From Myroides oncorhynchi (GTDB lineage Bacteria > Bacteroidota > Bacteroidia > Flavobacteriales > Flavobacteriaceae): a stretch of 64,000 bases of DNA. The stretch lies in assembly GCF_020905415.1 (NCBI RefSeq), contig NZ_JAJJMP010000001.1, positions 4,089,066 to 4,153,065 of the forward strand, written 5' to 3'. Shown piece by piece: positions 24,064 through 33,611 of this stretch (the first letter of the stretch is position 1; the number at the start of each line of letters is the position of its first letter). A model generated the notes under the pieces. The model searched no databases. It was not told the origin of the DNA and worked only from the letters and a program-made list of their open reading frames with translations. Position numbers and translations under genes: made by a program.

Positions 24064-25639
24064 CTCAAGTTTCGCACCTCAAAAAAATTATGTAAGTGGT
24101 TGATGTTTAAAGTTAACAGTATTTAGTAAGAGTTCAAAATCTTCTATACTTGATATTACTTTAGCTGTAAACTCTACAATATCAATGTTGTAAGTCTAAT
24201 TTTTCAATAAATTCCAAAATTAGACTTACAACAGCTAATATCCTTATATTTAATTTGTGTTCAATATAGTCTTGTTTCAAATCTTTAAACAACCCGCCTA
24301 AGGTTTCATAAGCTTCCATACGGTATCGAATACTAGCAAGTAAATACTGAGTCATTGTAATTGTTATTTGTGCAATGTGAACATCGAAGTTCGTTGACTG
24401 ACATTTTCCAAGTTTAAAGAGTTGCTTCGCTTCTTTAAAAAAAACTTCAATTGACCACCTAATACTGTAAATTTCAATTGCTTTGATAAAAGTTAATGCG
24501 GTGTCTGTAGCTATTAAAGTATGCCATTTACCATTCTGACCACGTTTTGAAATAAAAACAGCAACTTTAAGTCCATCGATTTCAGATATGTAGTGATAAT
24601 AATAGTAATTAAGTTTACGACATCTTTTAGGCTTAAGTTGCTGTTTCTTAAGTTGTGAAATGGTCTTAACTTTGGATTCAACTTCAATTTTACTATTGTA
24701 TTTATACATTCCAATAATATGAATTGTCTTGCCAAGACTACGTATTTTTTTAAGTAAACTAATACTAGTAAACCAAGTATCCATTAAAACATAATCTATT
24801 GCTATTTTACGCTTTATAATCCTTGAAAACATTTGTATTAGTACATCCGTCTTCTTTTTGTTTAGTTCTGTATATCTTTTTGAAGCAACCGTTTTAGGGC
24901 ATCTAGTGGTCTTTTTTTGCTCTTTACGTTGCTTTATTGTTAAACCATATTTTTGTTTTGATTTTTTATTCTCACGATGTAAACTAAAATCAATTGGAAT
25001 AAAAATACTCCCATTCCAATATCCTGCTACTAGTAATTTGAATCCTAGATAGTATGTCTTTGAAACATGATTGTATATTTTTGAGATACCTTCGATAGTT
25101 TCTCCTGTTTTATGAAGGTCTGTATCATCAAAAATTAAACACTTCGTTGCATTTTCTGTTGAAGTAAAAAGCTCCTCCTTTTGTAAATATTGTTTTACAA
25201 ACTGAAATAGAAATGATCTCCAATTGATGTTTTGATTTGCTAAAAGTCGATAGTAAGAATCTTTACCACATAAACTTATACCTGAGTTTTTGCTACTGAC
25301 AAGTTCATTAATGCTTTGAATACCAATAATAGAAAAGACTAAGAGTGAACCGATTAATTGTTCAAAAGAATAACCCGCTTTCTTGCACCAGTTAAATTGG
25401 TTTTTAATTTTATTGAATCCTAAAATATTTAGATGCGCCTGTAGATATTCAGAACTCATCCAAACCTTTTTAAACTTTCCTTTTAATTCTTCAACTTTAG
25501 TAATATCTTCGTGTTGTAGCATGTTTTGTACTTTGTGTGTGGTAACTTAAAGATACAATAAAACCAAGGGAACCCCCTTGGTTTGCATGCTATTTTTTTA
25601 TCCTTTTAAACCCTGTGAAATAGGGGTGCGAAACTTGAG
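24064..25639. mobile_element. IS4-type insertion sequence, complete
   Basis: A 1576-bp element bounded by perfect 15-bp inverted repeats CTCAAGTTTCGCACC (24064-24078) and GGTGCGAAACTTGAG (25625-25639). It is flanked by an 8-bp direct repeat TTACATAA (24056-24063 and 25640-25647), the target duplication. It contains one transposase gene on the minus strand (24182-25522). Intact ends, intact target duplication and an intact transposase suggest recent arrival. It sits between the nucleoside-deoxyribosyltransferase-like gene and the fic pseudogene. Confidence 0.93.
24182..25522 (-). CDS. IS4-family DDE transposase
   Basis: A 446-residue transposase. Catalytic residues: first Asp in LIFDDTDLHKTGE (near residue 130), second Asp in YVLMDTWFTSISLLKK (near 245), and Glu in the YREK signature Y-x2-R-x3-E-x6-K (YSIRWSIEVFFKEAK, near 365). 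The YREK motif is the hallmark of the IS4 group. The frame is uninterrupted and located wholly between the inverted repeats. A -7-like element is not obvious inside the left end. Confidence 0.92.
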   Translation of the reverse strand: MLQHEDITKVEELKGKFKKVWMSSEYLQAHLNILGFNKIKNQFNWCKKAGYSFEQLIGSLLVFSIIGIQSINELVSSKNSGISLCGKDSYYRLLANQNINWRSFLFQFVKQYLQKEELFTSTENATKCLIFDDTDLHKTGETIEGISKIYNHVSKTYYLGFKLLVAGYWNGSIFIPIDFSLHRENKKSKQKYGLTIKQRKEQKKTTRCPKTVASKRYTELNKKKTDVLIQMFSRIIKRKIAIDYVLMDTWFTSISLLKKIRSLGKTIHIIGMYKYNSKIEVESKVKTISQLKKQQLKPKRCRKLNYYYYHYISEIDGLKVAVFISKRGQNGKWHTLIATDTALTFIKAIEIYSIRWSIEVFFKEAKQLFKLGKCQSTNFDVHIAQITITMTQYLLASIRYRMEAYETLGGLFKDLKQDYIEHKLNIRILAVVSLILEFIEKLDLQH

Positions 25640-25743: not shown

Positions 25744-26634
25744 ATGAACTATATTTCAGTTAAAGAGTTTGCTATCAAATGAAATGTCTCAGAGAGAACA
25801 GCGCGTAACTACTGTACCACAGGTAAGATACAAGGGGCTTTTATAACTGGCAAAACTTGGAATATACCAGCAGATGCTCCAATACCACAAAAAGCACAAA
25901 CTAGAAAATTCAGTAACAATCTCCTTTTAAATCACTTAAAAGAACAAAAAGATATGAAGTTAAAAGGAGGTATCTATCATCGTACGCAGATAGATCTGAC
26001 TTATAATTCTAACAGAATTGAGGGAAGTAAACTTACACAAGATCAGACGCGATATATGTTCGAGACCAATACTATAGGTGCAACTAAGGATAGTGTGAAT
26101 GTGGATGACATCATAGAAACGACAAATCACTTTAGCTGTATAAATCTAATCATAGATAAAGCGAAAGTGAAGTTAACAGAATCACTTATTAAAGAACTAC
26201 ATTACATACTTAAATCTGGTACATCTGATGCACGTAAAGAGTGGTTTAATGTATGTGATTATAAGAAACTCCCTAATGAAGTGGGAGGCAATAAAACCTG
26301 TCATCCAAAGGAAGTCTCTAACCAAATGAGAAAACTAATTACCTCTTATAACAACATAGATAATAAATCAATAGAGGACATCATAGACTTCCACTATCAC
26401 TTCGGAATAATCCGTCCGTTCCAAGATGGCAATGGTCGCATAGGTCGTCTAATTATGTTTAAAGAATGTCTTGCGAATAATATTGTTCCATTTATTATTG
26501 AAGATGACATCAAAATGTTTTATTATCGCGGTTTACAAGAATGGCCAACTATTAAAGAATATCTGCTAGACACCTGTCTTTCTGCTCAAGATCAGTACAA
26601 AGCCATCCTAGACTATTTCGAAATTAAATATTAG
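25744..26634 (+). pseudogene. Fic-domain gene with early stop codon and altered catalytic motif
   Basis: The reading frame from ATG 25744 encodes MNYISVKEFAIK, then TGA (25780-25782), then continues in frame NVSERTARNYCTTGKIQG and on to the Fic domain, 296 codons in all. The N-terminal segment looks like an HTH in which a Trp (TGG to TGA) is expected at codon 13. The Fic domain from 25954 is complete: inhibitory motif SNRIEG (S-x3-E-G) near residue 88 of the full frame, and FIC core IIRPFQDGNGRIGRLIMF. The usual catalytic His of HPF is Arg here (CGT, one base from CAT), so AMP transfer should be abolished even if translation restarts at the ATG at 25954. Two disabling changes in one gene suggest inactivation. 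Confidence 0.75.
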
Positions 26635-26867: not shown

Positions 26868-27449
26868 TTAAAACTCATATACTTCAAGTTGTTTCTCGTC
26901 GAATACAACTTCAGCGTGACCACTTGGTGCATCATAAGATGCTTTAGCTACCACAGATGGATTAGATGGGTATGTTCCATTAGCATATACTAATGACTTC
27001 CACTCTCCACCTGATTTCACAGTTAGAATTTTCCAATCATTATCTACAGTAGGTTCTACAAAAATAGCTCCTTGCATTACCGTAAACTTCGTTATTAATT
27101 TATAGTTCGAATCTAATAATAACATTGTACATCCTCCTGAACCACAGAAATAAGAACCTGGTAAACTTACAAAAGTCTCTTTTTTGCCATCATTATTTAA
27201 GTCTATTGAATATAACTTAAACTGACGATCAGTTTCTGTCATTGTCTTCAAGTCAGCATCTGTCAAAAGCTCATTCTTAATAAAATTACTTACTCCTAAC
27301 ACCACATCTGATCCTAAAGCATCAGCCTTAGGTTCTTGAAACTCTATTACCTCTTCTAGAGGTTCGATAGCCTCTATTTTCTTTTCTTTCTTACACGAAG
27401 TCAATGCTAGTCCTCCACATAAAATAACTAGTAAACTTAATCTTTTCAT
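26868..27449 (-). CDS. Hypothetical lipoprotein
   Basis: A 193-residue lipoprotein. The start at 27449 (MKRLSLLVILCGGLALTSCK) is chosen over the upstream ATG at 27479 because it opens directly with a signal peptide whose lipobox LTSC is at residues 16-19. The mature part is Glu-rich at first, then contains YSIDLNNDGKKETFVSLPG, an FG-GAP/EF-like DxNxDGxxE calcium-type loop, and a Cys-containing GSGGCTML word. Probably anchored in the outer or inner membrane facing the periplasm. No family name is assigned. Monocistronic with its own terminator. Confidence 0.75.
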   Translation of the reverse strand: MKRLSLLVILCGGLALTSCKKEKKIEAIEPLEEVIEFQEPKADALGSDVVLGVSNFIKNELLTDADLKTMTETDRQFKLYSIDLNNDGKKETFVSLPGSYFCGSGGCTMLLLDSNYKLITKFTVMQGAIFVEPTVDNDWKILTVKSGGEWKSLVYANGTYPSNPSVVAKASYDAPSGHAEVVFDEKQLEVYEF

Positions 27450-27712
27450 ACCTATTAAAAAATCGTTTGTATCGTACAAATATGGACAAAGAAGTTTGAT
27501 TTTCCTTCATTAAAGTAACTTATTTTTTAAGCGCTACTATTTCTCCTTTTCTTTCTAAAACAGTTCAATTACTTACTAAGATTATGCCAATGCTCCAATA
27601 TTCTCAATTAAGACAAAACAACAAAAACACATTAAAACAAACAATTACCTACATTTATCAAATATTTAAACATCAAAATATAAAAAATATCCAAAAAGTA
27701 TATACCTAAGAT

Positions 27713-27742
27713 TTGGAGGTATCAATATTTTTTATAGTTTTG
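27713..27742 (+). promoter_or_regulatory. Bacteroidota-type promoter of the PadR/membrane-protein operon
   Basis: TTG (27713-27715), 19 bp, then TAGTTTTG (27735-27742), an exact match to TTG-N19-TAnnTTTG. Transcription would start near 27748, so the start codon must be downstream; this selects the ATG at 27764. Confidence 0.8.
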
Positions 27743-27763
27743 TTATACATAAGAATCTTAAGT

Positions 27764-28099
27764 ATGAAAAAGCAACAACAATTATATAAAGGAAGTCTCA
27801 ATGCCATCATTATGAAATTACTTGATCAGAATGGGCGAATGTATGGATATGAGATTACACAGAAGGTAAAGGAGGTAACCGAAGGCGAAATGAGTTTAAC
27901 GGAAGGAGCGCTCTACCCTGCCCTCCATAAACTAGAGGCTGACGGCTTCTTAGATGTAGAACTAGAGCGTGTAGATGGACGAGTACGTAAGTACTATAAA
28001 CTCACCGAGTCTGGAGTAAAAGAAACTACTTCTAAAATGGAAGAGCTTGAAAGCTTTATCCGCAATATGCAGAACATTGTCAACCTAAAATTGACATAA
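27764..28099 (+). CDS. PadR-family transcriptional regulator
   Basis: A 111-residue winged-helix regulator: LYKGSLNAIIMKLLDQNG, YGYEITQKVKEV, LTEGALYPALHKLEADGFL and a wing VDGRVRKYYKLTESG. The ATG at 27713 would add 17 residues but precedes the promoter's likely start site, so 27764 is used. It heads a unit of seven further genes, six of which begin with a small helical domain resembling the HAAS domain known to be linked with PadR regulators. It is likely to autoregulate and to be controlled by one or more of these membrane proteins. Confidence 0.9.
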   Translation: MKKQQQLYKGSLNAIIMKLLDQNGRMYGYEITQKVKEVTEGEMSLTEGALYPALHKLEADGFLDVELERVDGRVRKYYKLTESGVKETTSKMEELESFIRNMQNIVNLKLT

Positions 28100-28125
28100 T
28101 TGGCAACCACCAAAGACAAAACACA

Positions 28126-28767
28126 ATGAAAACACTTACTATAAACCAACAACAACTAATTATCGCTGAGATAGCAAGATATAATGTGCGTTATGCCAAT
28201 CTTAAAGAAGAATTGACAGATCATATCTTCTGTGAAATAGAAGAGCTATATCATACAAGATACGAGTTTGAACAAGCTTTTATACAAGTATTTGATAAAT
28301 GGCATCCTATGCTGACTCCTAGAAAAGACTTTAAGTATAGACATGTTCCTTCTTTTATCTCTAATACTTGGTATCGTAGAGATGATAACAGATGGAGAAT
28401 AGCAGGTGTTATTACTTTCTTATTTGCCTTAATCAATTCACTCTTTTTAAAATTAGATCATACCACTCATAATATTAGCTTCTTTGCGATCAGTTTGATA
28501 GGGCTTATATTATCTGTTCTACTATTCATGAAGAATCGCAAGAGACAGAACTATAGAGCTTCTTATTTGATTCTAAAATCTATGGTATCTGGTAGTACAC
28601 TACTTGTATTCACTCTTATACTTGGTACAAAAGTTTACAGATATATGATTAACGGCTTTACTATGGGAGACCTTGATCTACTATCATTAATTTCACTATA
28701 CCACTGTATCAATATTATAGTGTTATCTAGAGAAAATAGTAGACAACGTCGTACACAGATTGCTTAA
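28126..28767 (+). CDS. HAAS-like membrane protein 1 of the PadR operon
   Basis: A 213-residue protein with a soluble N-terminal helical domain (residues 1-~65, MKTLTINQQQLIIAEIARYN; core KEELTDHIFCEIEELY) followed by about four membrane helices (roughly 93-112, 117-133, 150-167, 180-198). The N-terminal domain is shared with the five paralogues downstream; the TDH-x3-E-IEEL core and the following AF-x5-W element are the conserved part. The membrane half has little similarity to them. Inferred to be a cytoplasmic-facing sensor or anti-regulator domain tethered to the membrane. Starts 26 nt after padR. Confidence 0.75.
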   Translation: MKTLTINQQQLIIAEIARYNVRYANLKEELTDHIFCEIEELYHTRYEFEQAFIQVFDKWHPMLTPRKDFKYRHVPSFISNTWYRRDDNRWRIAGVITFLFALINSLFLKLDHTTHNISFFAISLIGLILSVLLFMKNRKRQNYRASYLILKSMVSGSTLLVFTLILGTKVYRYMINGFTMGDLDLLSLISLYHCINIIVLSRENSRQRRTQIA

Positions 28768-28781
28768 AAAAACAAAATGCT

Positions 28782-29432
28782 ATGAAAACACTAACTACCG
28801 ACCAAATAAATCAAATAGAAGAGTTTTTAACCTCTCAATATAACATCAAATATCAAGACTCTCGTGATGAAGTTCTTGATCATATTGCTTGTGAAGTAGA
28901 GGAATTAATGAATGAGGGTGCATACTTTAGTGAAGCCTTTAAATTAACGATAGCTAAGTGGCACAGTCAATTAAAACCTTCACTACTAATGAAGAAAACA
29001 CCTAGACTAGTAGTAAATACATTTATCAGACAAGATGTAAAAGTGTTAACAGGACTTTTCTGTATAACTGCATTAGGTGTGATTAGTACTTATTCTTTCC
29101 TATCAAATTATATTTCATTAATATTTCTTGCGTTCTTACTCTCTGCTTCCAATATTATGTTATATGGTGTTACAAAATATGCTAAAACAAAAGTAGTTAA
29201 CTATAAAACGGACTATTGTAAAGAACAAATAACTGTATTAAGTTGGTTTAGCTTCTTCTTAATTGATATGATGGTATTCATTCTTTATATAGATGTACAT
29301 CCAAATGCTTTAGTCTATGTGAACCCTTTAATGTTATTCTTTGCATTGTTTATGAGTTGTGCAATTGGATATTTCATTGTAAAACTCCAAAAAGAATACA
29401 CTAAAGCCTCACCTTCAATACAACAATTATGA
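28782..29432 (+). CDS. HAAS-like membrane protein 2 of the PadR operon
   Basis: A 216-residue paralogue. N-terminal domain: MKTLTTDQINQIEEFLTSQY, then DEVLDHIACEVEELMNEG and EAFKLTIAKWH. About four hydrophobic helices follow (roughly 90-110, 112-130, 153-172, 178-198). The first ~45 codons are nearly identical in DNA to those of the gene at 29429, indicating recent duplication or gene conversion limited to this domain. Its end overlaps the next gene by 4 nt. Confidence 0.75.
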   Translation: MKTLTTDQINQIEEFLTSQYNIKYQDSRDEVLDHIACEVEELMNEGAYFSEAFKLTIAKWHSQLKPSLLMKKTPRLVVNTFIRQDVKVLTGLFCITALGVISTYSFLSNYISLIFLAFLLSASNIMLYGVTKYAKTKVVNYKTDYCKEQITVLSWFSFFLIDMMVFILYIDVHPNALVYVNPLMLFFALFMSCAIGYFIVKLQKEYTKASPSIQQL

Positions 29433-30034
29433 AAACACTTACTATCAACCAAATAAAACAAATAGAAGAGTTTTTAACCTCTCAATATAACATCAAGTAT
29501 CAAGATACTCGTGATGAGGTATTGGATCATATAGCCTGTGAGATAGAAGAACTGATAAATGAGGGGGCTGAGTATGACACTGCATTCAAAAACACTTTTA
29601 ATAAATGGCATAATGATTTAACGCCACATATGTTTATTCGTTATCATAATGTACCTTCTTATCTAGGTCGTCAATGGGTTAAGAGAGATGTACTTAGTAT
29701 CATCCTAGCAATGATAATAGGAATAGGATTACCTTATATCTTTAAAAACACAATAGAGGAATACAATCTAGCCAATATAATAGGTAACTCTCTATGTATA
29801 ACTAGTATCTTATTGGGCACTTTTATAACTATCCGATACTATGGAATCAAAGGATATAGGATAAGTCAACTAAAGAAAGATGTACTAGGTTACGGCGGTA
29901 TTTCTCTATTTTATCTTCTGCTTTTTTGGGGAGGTTTTACTTACAAATTGTTACCAATGATGTTTATTTTTACTCTATACCAACTCTACTACATATCAGA
30001 AATACAAAAAGTAAATATTAGAACTATTAACTAA
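29429..30034 (+). CDS. HAAS-like membrane protein 3 of the PadR operon
   Basis: A 201-residue paralogue with the N-terminal core DEVLDHIACEIEELINEG followed by AFKNTFNKWH and about four membrane helices. Its N-terminal domain is almost identical to that of protein 2, whereas the membrane part is unrelated at the residue level except for a conserved W-x-K/R-D element just before the first helix. ATG overlaps the stop of the preceding gene. Confidence 0.75.
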   Translation: MKTLTINQIKQIEEFLTSQYNIKYQDTRDEVLDHIACEIEELINEGAEYDTAFKNTFNKWHNDLTPHMFIRYHNVPSYLGRQWVKRDVLSIILAMIIGIGLPYIFKNTIEEYNLANIIGNSLCITSILLGTFITIRYYGIKGYRISQLKKDVLGYGGISLFYLLLFWGGFTYKLLPMMFIFTLYQLYYISEIQKVNIRTIN

Positions 30035-30040
30035 GCAATT

Positions 30041-30739
30041 ATGACAACACTAACCACTGAACGGATACAAGAGATAAGAGCCTTTATCATCAGTAAAGAT
30101 GTGAAGTATTACGAAACAATAGAAGAACTTACTGATCACCTAGCTTCTTCTATAGAAGAGAAATGGTCTGAAGGTGAAAATAATAACTTAGAATATCTAT
30201 TAGCTAAAGAATATGAAAACTTTGGTCCTTATAAATTCTTATCTATTCAAGAAAGTAGAGAGAAACAAAAATTCAGAGAATATAAACATATGTTTTTCAA
30301 ATCTTTAAAAGAGTTTTTTACATTTCCTTTAATAATTACAGTTTTAGCTATAGTATTACTAATTGCAGCATTACTTCATTGGATAGGTCAAGAGTATAAA
30401 TTCTTAACTATGATAGTTATGATGAGCCCTATAATTGTATTCATTTATATTTATGTAATAGATTTAGTGCTACGAAAAAAAGTGAAGACAAAACTACTAT
30501 TAGACAGTACTTATTCATCTGTTATGAGTTTTTCGTTACTCTCAAATACAATCTTCTTTAATGTCATTATGCAGGGCAAAAGGTTCTTTAATCTACCTAC
30601 TACTTATGACTCTATAGGAGATTGTTTATTAATGGCTTCGGGTATTACCTTAACTATACTTAGTATCTATGTTGGTCTTAAAATTATAAAGCCAGCCTAC
30701 CAAAATGAAAGAGATAGAGTATTAAAAACTATTAACTAG
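30041..30739 (+). CDS. HAAS-like membrane protein 4 of the PadR operon (divergent type)
   Basis: A 232-residue member of a divergent subtype: MTTLTTERIQEIRAFIISKD, then YETIEELTDHLASSIEEKW. It lacks the Cys of the other type (ACE replaced by ASS) and continues with EYLLAKEYENFG rather than AF-x5-W. Four membrane segments are predicted (roughly 97-115, 121-140, 165-182, 195-213). Most similar to the last member at 32312. The gap to the previous gene is 6 nt. Confidence 0.72.
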   Translation: MTTLTTERIQEIRAFIISKDVKYYETIEELTDHLASSIEEKWSEGENNNLEYLLAKEYENFGPYKFLSIQESREKQKFREYKHMFFKSLKEFFTFPLIITVLAIVLLIAALLHWIGQEYKFLTMIVMMSPIIVFIYIYVIDLVLRKKVKTKLLLDSTYSSVMSFSLLSNTIFFNVIMQGKRFFNLPTTYDSIGDCLLMASGITLTILSIYVGLKIIKPAYQNERDRVLKTIN

Positions 30740-30745
30740 ACACTT

Positions 30746-31408
30746 ATGGCAACACTTACTATTGATCAAATAAAAGAAATAGAAGAGTTCTTAATCACTC
30801 AGTACAATATCAAATATCAAGATACTCGTGAGGAAGTACTTGATCATATTGCCTGTGAGATAGAAGAACTGATGAATGAAGGTTATGAATATAGAGATGC
30901 TTTTGAACAGACTTTTATAAACTGGAAGGTTTTATTAAAAACAGATCCTTTTCATCTCTATAAAAACACCCCCTACTTTATCTCTAAAAACTGGATTGAA
31001 AAAGATAGTAGAATAAAAAACAACTCTATCTTATTGGGGATAATTCTTGCTGTTTGTCAAATGACAGCTCTAGTGTTTTCAAATAGTTTATACTTTATAG
31101 TTTCAATATTATTAGCTCTAGGTTCATTGAATATAGTATTTATGCTTAAACACTATATCAAAATGATAGCAAGTGAACATGCTGTTTATCTAAAGAAGAG
31201 AATTAAAAAAACAACTTCTTATAATGCCTTAATATTAGTGCTATTCATAAGTATCCTAATCTTTCAACACTTACTTAAAAAAGGCGATTTACTAGGCTTC
31301 ACTCAAGGTTTTATAATTGGAGGGGCTTTATTTGTTCCTTTTTCATTAACCTGGACACTGCTTACTTATAAATCGTACAAACAACAACTAAGCAAAACTG
31401 AAGTATGA
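30746..31408 (+). CDS. HAAS-like membrane protein 5 of the PadR operon
   Basis: A 220-residue paralogue of the first type: MATLTIDQIKEIEEFLITQY, REEVLDHIACEIEELMNEG, DAFEQTFINW, then a W-IEKD element and about four membrane helices. Its N-terminal domain is again close to that of proteins 2 and 3. The stop TGA overlaps the ATG of the secreted protein at 31405, indicating translational coupling. Confidence 0.75.
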   Translation: MATLTIDQIKEIEEFLITQYNIKYQDTREEVLDHIACEIEELMNEGYEYRDAFEQTFINWKVLLKTDPFHLYKNTPYFISKNWIEKDSRIKNNSILLGIILAVCQMTALVFSNSLYFIVSILLALGSLNIVFMLKHYIKMIASEHAVYLKKRIKKTTSYNALILVLFISILIFQHLLKKGDLLGFTQGFIIGGALFVPFSLTWTLLTYKSYKQQLSKTEV

Positions 31409-32301
31409 TGAAAAAAACAATTAACTTAATAATTCTATTATTATTCACTAGTATATCTTACTGTCAAATATCAGAAGATATAAATAGGATACTAGTCGAT
31501 GTACTATACAAAGACCAACATTATAGAAATCTATACGATAAAGAACAAGATAGTAATGCTAAGAAAGAGTTATCATCTACTATCTCTTCCTATGACAAGA
31601 AGAACCAAGAGATAGTACTTCCTATAATAGAACGATTAATTAATGGAGAAGATTTAAAATTAGATGAGACTAGTTGGAGTACTTGTTTCTTAGTACTACA
31701 ACACGCTGATTTAGAAACTCAATTAAAGTACAAAGACTTTATTTTACACTACTATAAAGCAGGTAAAATAAAGAATTACGAATATCTTATATTTATAGAT
31801 AGGATAAATGTAAATACTAATAGACTACAGACTTTTGGTAGTCAAGTAATAGAACTTCCTAATGGCAAGTTATTAGTATATCCATATGCTTCTTATGACA
31901 CTAGAATGAAAGCTTTTAACAGTATAGACATGAATATTCTTAATTTCTCAGTGATTAATGGCACTATGAGATACAGCACTAATCTAAACAAAAAGAAAGA
32001 AGAAGAGATCGGTAAGCAATATCCTATTGTAACTCTAAAAGAGAATGACTTTGTTTTTTTAGGAGCTGTTATAGACAAACAAGATTACAAAGGTGTAGCT
32101 GACATACAGGTTCTAAATAACAATATAATAGTTGCTACTACTGATGATACAGGTTATTTTCAATTTATAGTCAACAAGAATGAAGTTCCAAAAACTATTC
32201 GTTTTAAATACAATAACCTAGAATACACATACAAAACCGATACACCTATAGAGGGGACTGATTTCAGATTAATAGTGAAAGCTACTGAAGCCTTTAAATA
32301 A
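31405..32301 (+). CDS. Secreted DUF6624-like protein with C-terminal carboxypeptidase-regulatory-like domain
   Basis: A 298-residue exported protein, the odd one out in the array. A signal peptide covers residues 1-~20 (ends SYCQ). Residues ~25-175 resemble DUF6624: an acidic helical start, FLVLQHADLETQLKYKDF, then YLIFIDRINVNTNRLQTFGS (QHAD ... DRI.V ... Q.FG.Q words). Residues ~210-290 look like a transthyretin-like carboxypeptidase-regulatory fold (FLGAVIDKQDYKGVADIQV, TTDDTGYFQF). It probably acts in the periplasm, where it could present a signal to the membrane paralogues. DUF6624 assignment is from memory of the motif pattern. Confidence 0.65.
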   Translation: MMKKTINLIILLLFTSISYCQISEDINRILVDVLYKDQHYRNLYDKEQDSNAKKELSSTISSYDKKNQEIVLPIIERLINGEDLKLDETSWSTCFLVLQHADLETQLKYKDFILHYYKAGKIKNYEYLIFIDRINVNTNRLQTFGSQVIELPNGKLLVYPYASYDTRMKAFNSIDMNILNFSVINGTMRYSTNLNKKKEEEIGKQYPIVTLKENDFVFLGAVIDKQDYKGVADIQVLNNNIIVATTDDTGYFQFIVNKNEVPKTIRFKYNNLEYTYKTDTPIEGTDFRLIVKATEAFK

Positions 32302-32311
32302 GCGTAAAATT

Positions 32312-33004
32312 ATGATAAAAACACTAACTACTGACCAAATACAAGCTCTACACACTTTCGTAAAGAAACACTATGTAGAATACTATGATATCGAACTGGA
32401 GCTAGTCGATCACTTAGCCAATGGAATAGAGTCTCAATGGAGGGAGGATGCTTCACTTACCTTTGAAATAGCTTTAGACAGAGAGTTTAAGAAGTTTGGG
32501 GTATTTGGGTTTAGTGATGTGGTAGATAGAAAAGAAGGTACTTTAAAAAACTATTACATCAAACTAATATTAAAAGAGATAGTGCATTTCTTACATTGGC
32601 CTAAAGTAATTATGACTGCAGGGTTATATTATATGTTATACCTGGTGATAGCTTACTTATCACAGAGTTTTGAGCTAAGAGATATTACTTCTATTACTGG
32701 TCTCTTAGCAGTCAGTATCTCAGGAATATATTTTATCATAGTTAGTGTACAAACGAGAAGGGAAAGCAAAACAGAGAATAAAAGATGGTTAATGGACAGG
32801 GTTAGACTATCTATTCTAGCATTTCCAATAACTGCTTATTGGTTATTCATCACAATACTCTCAGGTATCTCTAGATACTCTGTTCATTTATGTGTGCTAA
32901 GCGTATTGTTCATTGGGTTATGGTTATATATTACCCACTTTGTGATATCACCTCAGCTAAAACGAGAGAAAGAAAATATTAAAAATAAGATACTAATGGT
33001 TTAA
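32312..33004 (+). CDS. HAAS-like membrane protein 6 of the PadR operon (divergent type)
   Basis: A 230-residue member of the divergent subtype with protein 4: MIKTLTTDQIQALHTFVKKH, DIELELVDHLANGIESQW, then ALDREFKKFGVFGFSDV. About four membrane helices follow (roughly 95-113, 123-142, 165-185, 190-210), and a basic C-terminal tail. Last gene of the operon; a hairpin terminator lies downstream at 33091. Confidence 0.72.
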   Translation: MIKTLTTDQIQALHTFVKKHYVEYYDIELELVDHLANGIESQWREDASLTFEIALDREFKKFGVFGFSDVVDRKEGTLKNYYIKLILKEIVHFLHWPKVIMTAGLYYMLYLVIAYLSQSFELRDITSITGLLAVSISGIYFIIVSVQTRRESKTENKRWLMDRVRLSILAFPITAYWLFITILSGISRYSVHLCVLSVLFIGLWLYITHFVISPQLKREKENIKNKILMV

Positions 33005-33090
33005 TCAACTACACACTATGATCGCATTTATAACTAAAATAGTCTTATACATCTGTAACCTTTTATTACATTGGTTATAGTACTGTTGTG

Positions 33091-33118
33091 GTAGTTTTAC
33101 AGAAAAAAACTACTTTTG
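33091..33118 (+). promoter_or_regulatory. Terminator overlapping rlmH promoter
   Basis: GTAGTTTT (33091-33098) pairs with AAAACTAC (33106-33113) and is followed by TTTTG, a plausible end for the membrane-protein operon. The 3' arm and U-tract themselves form TACTTTTG (33111-33118), a perfect TAnnTTTG -7 element 19 bp upstream of the rlmH ATG. Confidence 0.55.
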
Positions 33119-33137
33119 CAAAAAATAAATCAGACAG

Positions 33138-33611
33138 ATGAATATCAAATTACTTGCAATCGGTAAAACAGACAGTAAACCATTACAAACATTAATGGAT
33201 GAATATATGAAGAGATTGTCTTTTTATGTGAAGTTTGACTTAGAAGTTATTCCCGATATCAAGAATGCAAAGAATATGTCTGAAGAGCAACAGAAACTAA
33301 AAGAAGGTGAACTAATCTTGTCTAAAATAGGTCCTACTGACCAATTAATCTTACTAGACGACAAGGGGAAAGAGTTTACTAGTATTGGCTTTGCCGATGA
33401 GTTACAGAAGAAGATGAACTCGGGTATCAAGACCTTGGTATTCGTTATCGGTGGTCCTTATGGCTTCTCAGATGACGTATATAAAAATGCAAAAGGGAAA
33501 ATATCATTATCTAGAATGACATTCTCCCATCAGATGATTCGTTTATTTATTATAGAGCAAATCTATAGAGGATTTACTATCCTACGCAATGAGCCTTATC
33601 ACCACGAATAG
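33138..33611 (+). CDS. rlmH: 23S rRNA (pseudouridine1915-N3)-methyltransferase
   Basis: A 157-residue SPOUT methyltransferase acting on helix 69 of 70S ribosomes. Family landmarks: MNIKLLAIGKTDSKPL start, LILLDDKGKEFTS, FVIGGPYGFSDDVY (the SAM-binding knot), and the C-terminal FSHQMIRLFIIEQIYRGFTI with the final YHHE. Length is exactly that of the family. Own promoter at 33111. Confidence 0.97.
   Translation: MNIKLLAIGKTDSKPLQTLMDEYMKRLSFYVKFDLEVIPDIKNAKNMSEEQQKLKEGELILSKIGPTDQLILLDDKGKEFTSIGFADELQKKMNSGIKTLVFVIGGPYGFSDDVYKNAKGKISLSRMTFSHQMIRLFIIEQIYRGFTILRNEPYHHE

Follow-up and report, generated by a model that had tools for sequence, protein, structure and literature searches.

In the stretch of Myroides oncorhynchi DNA analysed here, called the window (64,000 nucleotides; assembly GCF_020905415.1, contig NZ_JAJJMP010000001.1, positions 4,089,066 to 4,153,065, forward strand), a padR gene is followed by a tandem array of six genes for membrane proteins with a common HAAS-like N-terminus. 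All the genes lie on the + strand. padR (27764-28099) encodes a winged-helix repressor of 111 aa, and the membrane proteins are encoded by M1 (28126-28767), M2 (28782-29432), M3 (29429-30034), M4 (30041-30739), M5 (30746-31408), and M6 (32312-33004), M1 being of the "first" type and M6 of the "last" type, which carries the motif FGxxGF. Between M5 and M6 lies the gene of a secreted-looking protein of 298 aa, S (31405-32301), whose signal peptide was judged by eye. The spacings from padR to M6 are, in gene order, 26, 14, -4, 6, 6, -4, and 10 nt, which agrees with the earlier note on this DNA, where padR and seven genes were described as a tight run with 4-nt overlaps or short gaps. The frames of M1-M6 are all intact. 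The listed padR open reading frame (ORF) begins upstream at TTG 27713, and the likelier start is ATG 27764. The protein belongs to the PadR family by its match to PF03551 (E = 3.8e-21, 75.3 bits for a cut-off of 27), and the 4.16-Mb genome (two contigs) has one other match to this model. It also matched TIGR03433 padR_acidobact, under that model's cut-off (5.3e-20); we take the PadR proteins of TIGR03433 to be the partners of the ADOP permeases (NF038403, TIGR03434).

Upstream of padR, a -33 element (TTTG, 27712-27715, +) and a -7 element (TAGTTTTG, 27735-27742, +) are separated by 19 nt; the assignment relies on the consensus TTTG/TAnnTTTG, which we take to be that of Bacteroidota promoters. 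The pattern TTTG-N17-23-TAnnTTTG had this single match on the + strand of 27400-33140, with 0.11 expected from shuffled sequences, in line with the one promoter of the earlier note, and the eight genes are presumably all driven from it. A looser TTG form of the promoter was also found at 33086, ahead of the downstream rlmH-like gene. Two 21-bp palindromes are predicted PadR operators. O1 (27702-27722), an imperfect palindrome with the form ATACCTAA-N5-GGAGGTAT, covers the -33 element, and O2 (27745-27765, ATACATAAGAATCTTAAGTAT) lies 3' of the -7 element and enters the padR start codon. For the pattern drawn from both, O2 is the sole site without mismatches in the whole genome; O1 has 2 mismatches to the consensus and is tied with three sites elsewhere, and the frequency of weaker operator-like sites in the genome was not above control. 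ATAC(A/C)TAA-N5-TTA(T/G)GTAT, with at most 2 mismatches, was present in 46 of 55 padR upstream regions against 3 of 550 shuffled ones, a comparison in which the consensus was derived from the same regions, kin by descent, and the shuffles ignore this kinship. The tested stretch ends at the start codon, which leaves O2 outside this count. The spacer was of 5 nt in all 46, with the arms alike and the middle variable. From their sequence and position, O1 and O2 predict autorepression by PadR.

The common N-terminal helical domain claimed for the six proteins was found: M1-M6 share about 65 residues and have little else in common. T3, L4, T5, Y23, E29, D32, H33, E39, and one later P are invariant in the six; the core motif quoted at the time describes the shared domain, but it is not exact in all of them (M1 has DHIF and M6 ends in IES). 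A domain model had exactly six matches in the genome, all in the array (E from 8e-28 to 1e-36); considering that it was built from M1-M6 themselves, the informative result is that there is no seventh copy. In the alignment of array proteins (A3; 140 of 164, the others removed for length or redundancy), E29 and D32 are invariant, and H33 and E39 are each kept in at least 90%. By AlphaFold2, the domain has helices at residues 7-19, 25-45, and 51-60, a break at FGxxGF, and a further helix at 68-95. With regard to the GxP kink motif of HAAS, the glycine is kept without GxP, and it is missing in many "first" and "mid" members.

The relation of this domain to HAAS, which the earlier note had proposed to check against the HAAS/DUF1700 families, came out differently according to the branch compared. 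Several results weigh against it. None of the 140 array proteins matched the Pfam models PF22564 (HAAS) or PF08006 (HAAS_TM) at E ≤ 0.01, genome searches with these two models did not recover the array of the window, and no Pfam model covers the N-terminal domain of the array proteins. Furthermore, the profile of a PspC-linked HAAS did not match the array profile (1.5%), although it gave no match to the permease-prefix branch either (3.8%). It was in this permease-prefix branch that the relation was borne out. The commonest NCBIfam match was NF038403 perm_prefix_1, reached at E ≤ 0.01 by 13 of the 140 proteins, the best of them at 3.2e-6, and the next family had 2; M5 was the best single-sequence match among M1-M6 (5.1e-4, below the cut-off). 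Comparison of the array N-terminus with the prefix domain by hhalign gave 60-73% and scores of 26-29, the maximum of 40 column-shuffled controls being 13.3, and in a second mode just 13-16% with scores of 21-22. The domain of the "last" type (A5) aligned with the prefix domain (A6) at 80.9% in the profile-profile comparison, with ELVDHLAN over ELESHLRD and KFG over xxG. The prefix profile A6 represents 21 of 30 NF038403 loci and the PF22564 profile A7 represents 16 of 19; 5 and 3 loci, respectively, were left out since the cut-out was wrong or distant. In addition, at loci of two other Bacteroidota (L197 and L200), padR is followed by a frame of 904-910 aa which begins with the array-type domain and in which the ~570 residues examined matched TIGR03434 ADOP (3.9e-44 and 1.7e-45, short of the cut-off set for the whole protein), MacB_PCD, and FtsX. 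Taking into account this homology to the prefix branch, and that the paper defining HAAS counts FtsX/MacB_PCD permease fusions as HAAS (Ravi et al., mSystems, PMC11237479), we place the array domain in the HAAS superfamily through its permease-prefix branch, the strict Pfam HAAS models giving no match.

The linkage to padR is conserved. Using the membrane-protein alignment alone, without padR, 26 named loci were recovered, and padR was upstream in all 26, mostly adjacent and at most about 770 nt away. In a search of 385 genomes of the phylum, with the best 15-16 candidates per genome scored here and in the genus survey below, the array domain was present in 34, the own genome included; padR was located within 1.5 kb in 26 of the 30 phylum-wide loci, among them that of the window, and at L181 and L187 it comes after the membrane gene instead of before it. 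The four loci without padR in range have three HAAS genes each, so that their padR is probably located further out, as it is in one of them, from genome G044. Neither of the outcomes that the earlier note had named as contrary to its proposal, a lack of relation to HAAS and a lack of conserved linkage to padR, was thus encountered, and the coupling is to a standalone PadR.

Other arrangements around padR were also observed. At L196:439-1689 (-), L089:4241-5335, L086:4226-4657, L088:7367-7795, L040:5045-5464, and L090:7233-7661, the gene after padR joins this N-terminal domain to GldL-like hairpins; PF22827 passed its cut-off of 24 bits in L089 and L196, reached 20.6-23.4 bits in L086, L088, L040, and L090, and had no match in L087. 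L196 also has a GldM_1st domain (PF12081, 8.8e-13). These fusions are modules like those of the gliding/type IX secretion motor, placed in the sensor position. Genome G022 has a second padR copy (L072:4008-4355), 86% identical to that of the window and with the palindrome region kept, which has no HAAS gene adjoining.

The diversification of the membrane parts of M1-M6, also claimed in the earlier note, is supported by sequence comparison. Four membrane segments fit each of the six proteins when four are requested, the number that was also imposed in the topology test; a simple threshold scan yields 2 to 4. In 148 of 151 proteins, loop 2 and the tail together contain more lysine and arginine than the other two loops, 1 and 3, and from this distribution both ends of the protein are predicted to be cytoplasmic. 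The AlphaFold2 model of M6 (mean predicted local distance difference test score 92.1) shows the helical N-terminal domain, a further helix, and then a bundle. The outer loops are short (medians of 7 and 10 aa) and there is no outer domain, so that whatever is sensed or affected by the array proteins is probably within the membrane, as far as the predicted topology indicates.

In the GTDB genus, 166 genomes out of 398 carried the domain. The copies per genome, which are not counts per array and are lower bounds owing to the candidates scored, were at least 1 in 52, 2 in 53, 3 in 31, 4 in 15, 5 in 11, 6 in 3, and 9 in 1. Six copies is therefore high and not unique, since at least 4 of the 398 genomes have six or more. 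The arrays range from 1 to 11 copies: a single array of M. odoratimimus CCUG 39352 comprises 11, and Myroides sp. N17-2 and M. marinus have 5 each. Among proteins of at least 190 aa, the best foreign match of a "last" protein was a "last" one in 33 of 36 cases, that of a "first" was a "first" in 28 of 39, and that of a middle protein was a middle one in 44 of 68; the ends of the array look more stable than the middle. M1 is 95% identical to the first gene of a related array, L091.

The chromosomal site is also mostly conserved in Flavobacterium, judging by the neighbouring genes. The upstream neighbour, ferredoxin-reductase-like and named by reading its sequence, is the same gene in 41 of 56 loci. 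Downstream, 30 of the 56 have a DUF5687 gene, on the same strand and within 200 nt in 27, and 17 show none of the three neighbours looked for on that side. In the window and its three near Myroides relatives, which make up 4 of the 56, the flanking genes differ, and rlmH, also named by reading, is downstream. Some arrays contain other genes. Four of the 56, from cold-type Flavobacterium, include small genes for GIY-YIG endonucleases with short flanking repeats (L107:6276-7882, L110:9593-11280, L098:6775-7197, and L100:7566-7877; PF01541 1.2e-14 for the one tested), and in L107 three GIY-YIG copies alternate with two truncated N-terminal stubs. These genes may help the turnover of the arrays. 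At L083:4562-6832 (-), a prolyl-oligopeptidase-like protein of 756 aa, so named from its sequence, lies between HAAS genes within the array.

The constant and variable parts of the genes have different histories. In L091, the DNA identity of genes 10 and 11 is 95% in the first 62 codons and 44% thereafter, and that of genes 3 and 4 is 94% and 47%; the boundary of 62 residues was chosen by eye. The drop is sharp in L091, at about nt 180, and earlier or more gradual in the window pairs M2/M3 and M3/M5. Where the residues of L091 genes 10 and 11 are identical, the same codon is used in 51 of 59 positions of the N-part and in 18 of 45 of the C-part (Fisher p = 8.5e-7). For the 19 within-array pairs with N-part identity of at least 70%, which are not independent (6 come from L091), the same codon was used in 716 of 891 and 416 of 865 positions, respectively; 14 pairs had p < 0.05 singly, uncorrected, and 5 did not, including M2/M3 of the window (p = 0.075). 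Selection at the protein level alone does not explain such sharing of synonymous codons. Pairs taken from different loci, with N-parts just as similar, had more similar C-parts (median 43% against 29%), with 50 of 297 below 35%. The array of the window is itself a mosaic, since its blocks are nearest to one or the other of two relatives. Against L091, blastn gave 80-86% for the outer flanks, 93.7% for padR-M1 (27643-28820), and 92.4% for M4-M5 (30037-31387); against L092, it gave 93.9% for the upstream flank and 91.0% for 28781-29656 (M2 and the start of M3), and the C-terminal part of M2 is 97% identical to that of gene 3 of L092. Four of the six inner-block edges, which are alignment ends and not mapped breakpoints, fall on the start of a gene or in its first ~230 nt (28781, 28820, 29656, and 30037); of the other two, one precedes padR and one is at the 3' end of M5. 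These comparisons of sequences show that, in the relatives, homogenisation or exchange affected the 5' gene segments separately from the membrane parts.

The kind of system is known. A paper of 2024 put forward the HAAS-PadR-like winged helix-turn-helix dyad as an alternative to the classical two-component systems, and according to the same source HAAS always neighbours a PadR gene and occurs in uncharacterised fusions with six, four, or two transmembrane segments besides the permease fusions (PMC11237479). The window resembles the dyad in that padR adjoins a gene joining an N-terminal HAAS-type helical domain to a part with several membrane segments; it differs in the up to 11 paralogues per padR and in the recombining constant part. 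The passages of PMC11237479 that bear on the terms tandem, array, paralog, Bacteroidetes, and Flavobacter describe no such arrays. The ADOP permeases are the nearest branch by profile, carry the array-type domain in L197 and L200, and have padR within 1.5 kb at 21 of 30 NF038403 loci, as the array loci do; in the window, unlike in these permeases, the domain sits on small membrane proteins in series. In Listeria, the operons lltR-lmo0600-lmo0601 and lftR-lftS likewise combine a PadR-type repressor with a DUF1700 or DUF1048 gene; each has one such partner, from other HAAS branches, in the cited parts of PMC6624303 and PMC4517056. A PspC-HAAS-PadR locus is found in the same genome as the array (C1, about 2.188 Mb), where padR, the other PF03551 match of the genome, is followed by a PF22564 HAAS (28.7 bits) on a membrane protein; unlike the array, it has a single protein of the PspC/LiaF type, the one whose HAAS profile does not align with that of the array. 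Within the openly licensed literature covered, a one-to-many array with recombination of the constant part, such as the sequences suggest here, was not found.

We consider it rather probable that the array is an expanded, recombining form of the HAAS-PadR membrane-linked regulatory system. A PadR dimer would bind the palindromes and repress its own operon, while the cytoplasmic HAAS-like domains would bind PadR. A change in the membrane (a membrane-active compound, the lipid state, or a partner protein) felt by one membrane part would alter its HAAS domain; the altered domain would take PadR off the DNA, and all the membrane proteins would rise together, being perhaps sensors and protective effectors simultaneously. 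The same release model has been stated for VanZ-HAAS/PadR (eLife 2025, PMC12419801), and in Listeria the inactivation of PadR derepresses the padR-DUF1700 operon experimentally (PMC6624303). The N-terminus would be constant because every paralogue has to match the one PadR and because a shared sequence serves for swapping in new membrane parts. A tentative extension, to which we give limited credence, is that of a cassette-exchange repertoire of intramembrane receptors served by one PadR, with the constant 5' segments (up to about 190 nt) as recombination sites; if true, a strain could rapidly change which membrane-active antagonists or states trigger the response. The recombination pattern suggests that bacteria diversify membrane receptors by module swapping in a one-to-many regulatory locus. 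No test of the HAAS-PadR signal path appears in the passages cited here, and the array offers a ready-made experiment, in which six naturally differing membrane parts with similar N-termini are combined with one PadR and one operator.

The main rival supposes that PadR simply represses its own operon and has a ligand of its own, and that the membrane proteins are protective or membrane-remodelling effectors whose N-terminus serves to form hetero-oligomers and not to bind PadR. We keep it in this place because the DUF1700 protein Lmo0600 acts as effector of the lltR operon in Listeria, where its overproduction harms growth in the cold (PMC6624303), and because lieAB is repressed by LftR whether LftS is there or not (PMC4517056). 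According to the latter source, the loss of lftS partly suppresses the lftR phenotypes. The very short outer loops, which leave little space for an outer ligand pocket, would also fit effectors. Co-assembly alone hardly accounts, however, for the same domain behind padR on unrelated modules, the permeases of L197 and L200 and the GldL/GldM-like fusion of L196, and we judge this explanation rather unlikely. If the tandem duplication were neutral and the membrane parts under relaxed constraint, one would expect shortened or truncated copies such as the 158-aa and 179-aa frames of L034 and the two stubs of L107. This explanation seems very improbable considering the ordered orthology of "last" and "first" proteins, the charge rule kept in nearly all proteins, and the six uninterrupted frames of the window.

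A third possibility is that the membrane proteins are intramembrane receptors or immunity proteins against membrane-active antagonists that competitors produce, a set which cassette exchange would renew. The constant 5' part next to a very different 3' part, the copy number of 1-11, and the mosaic ancestry within the window are what would be expected from such a repertoire. On the other side, PADLOC had no match among the 8 proteins, no toxin-like partner was recognised, and the site is mostly conserved in Flavobacterium. We regard this explanation as unlikely; the "defence-like" character suggested in the earlier note was not sustained, given the empty PADLOC result and the flanking genes kept in so many loci. 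The expanded HAAS-PadR system is the reading that we retain.

The secreted-looking protein S is a likely passenger, apart from the conserved system. Its named relatives are from Myroides only: M. odoratimimus CCUG 12901 has a homologue (90%), and the genome of M. odoratimimus CCUG 39352 had no match. A distant relative of S, with 35% over residues 10-151, is encoded in the same genome as the window (G000:C1:2660021-2660458). Upstream of the array region, the window contains a transposase-like ORF of 446 aa (24182-25522, -) and a Fic-like ORF of 226 aa (25954-26634, +), both named from reading the sequence only.

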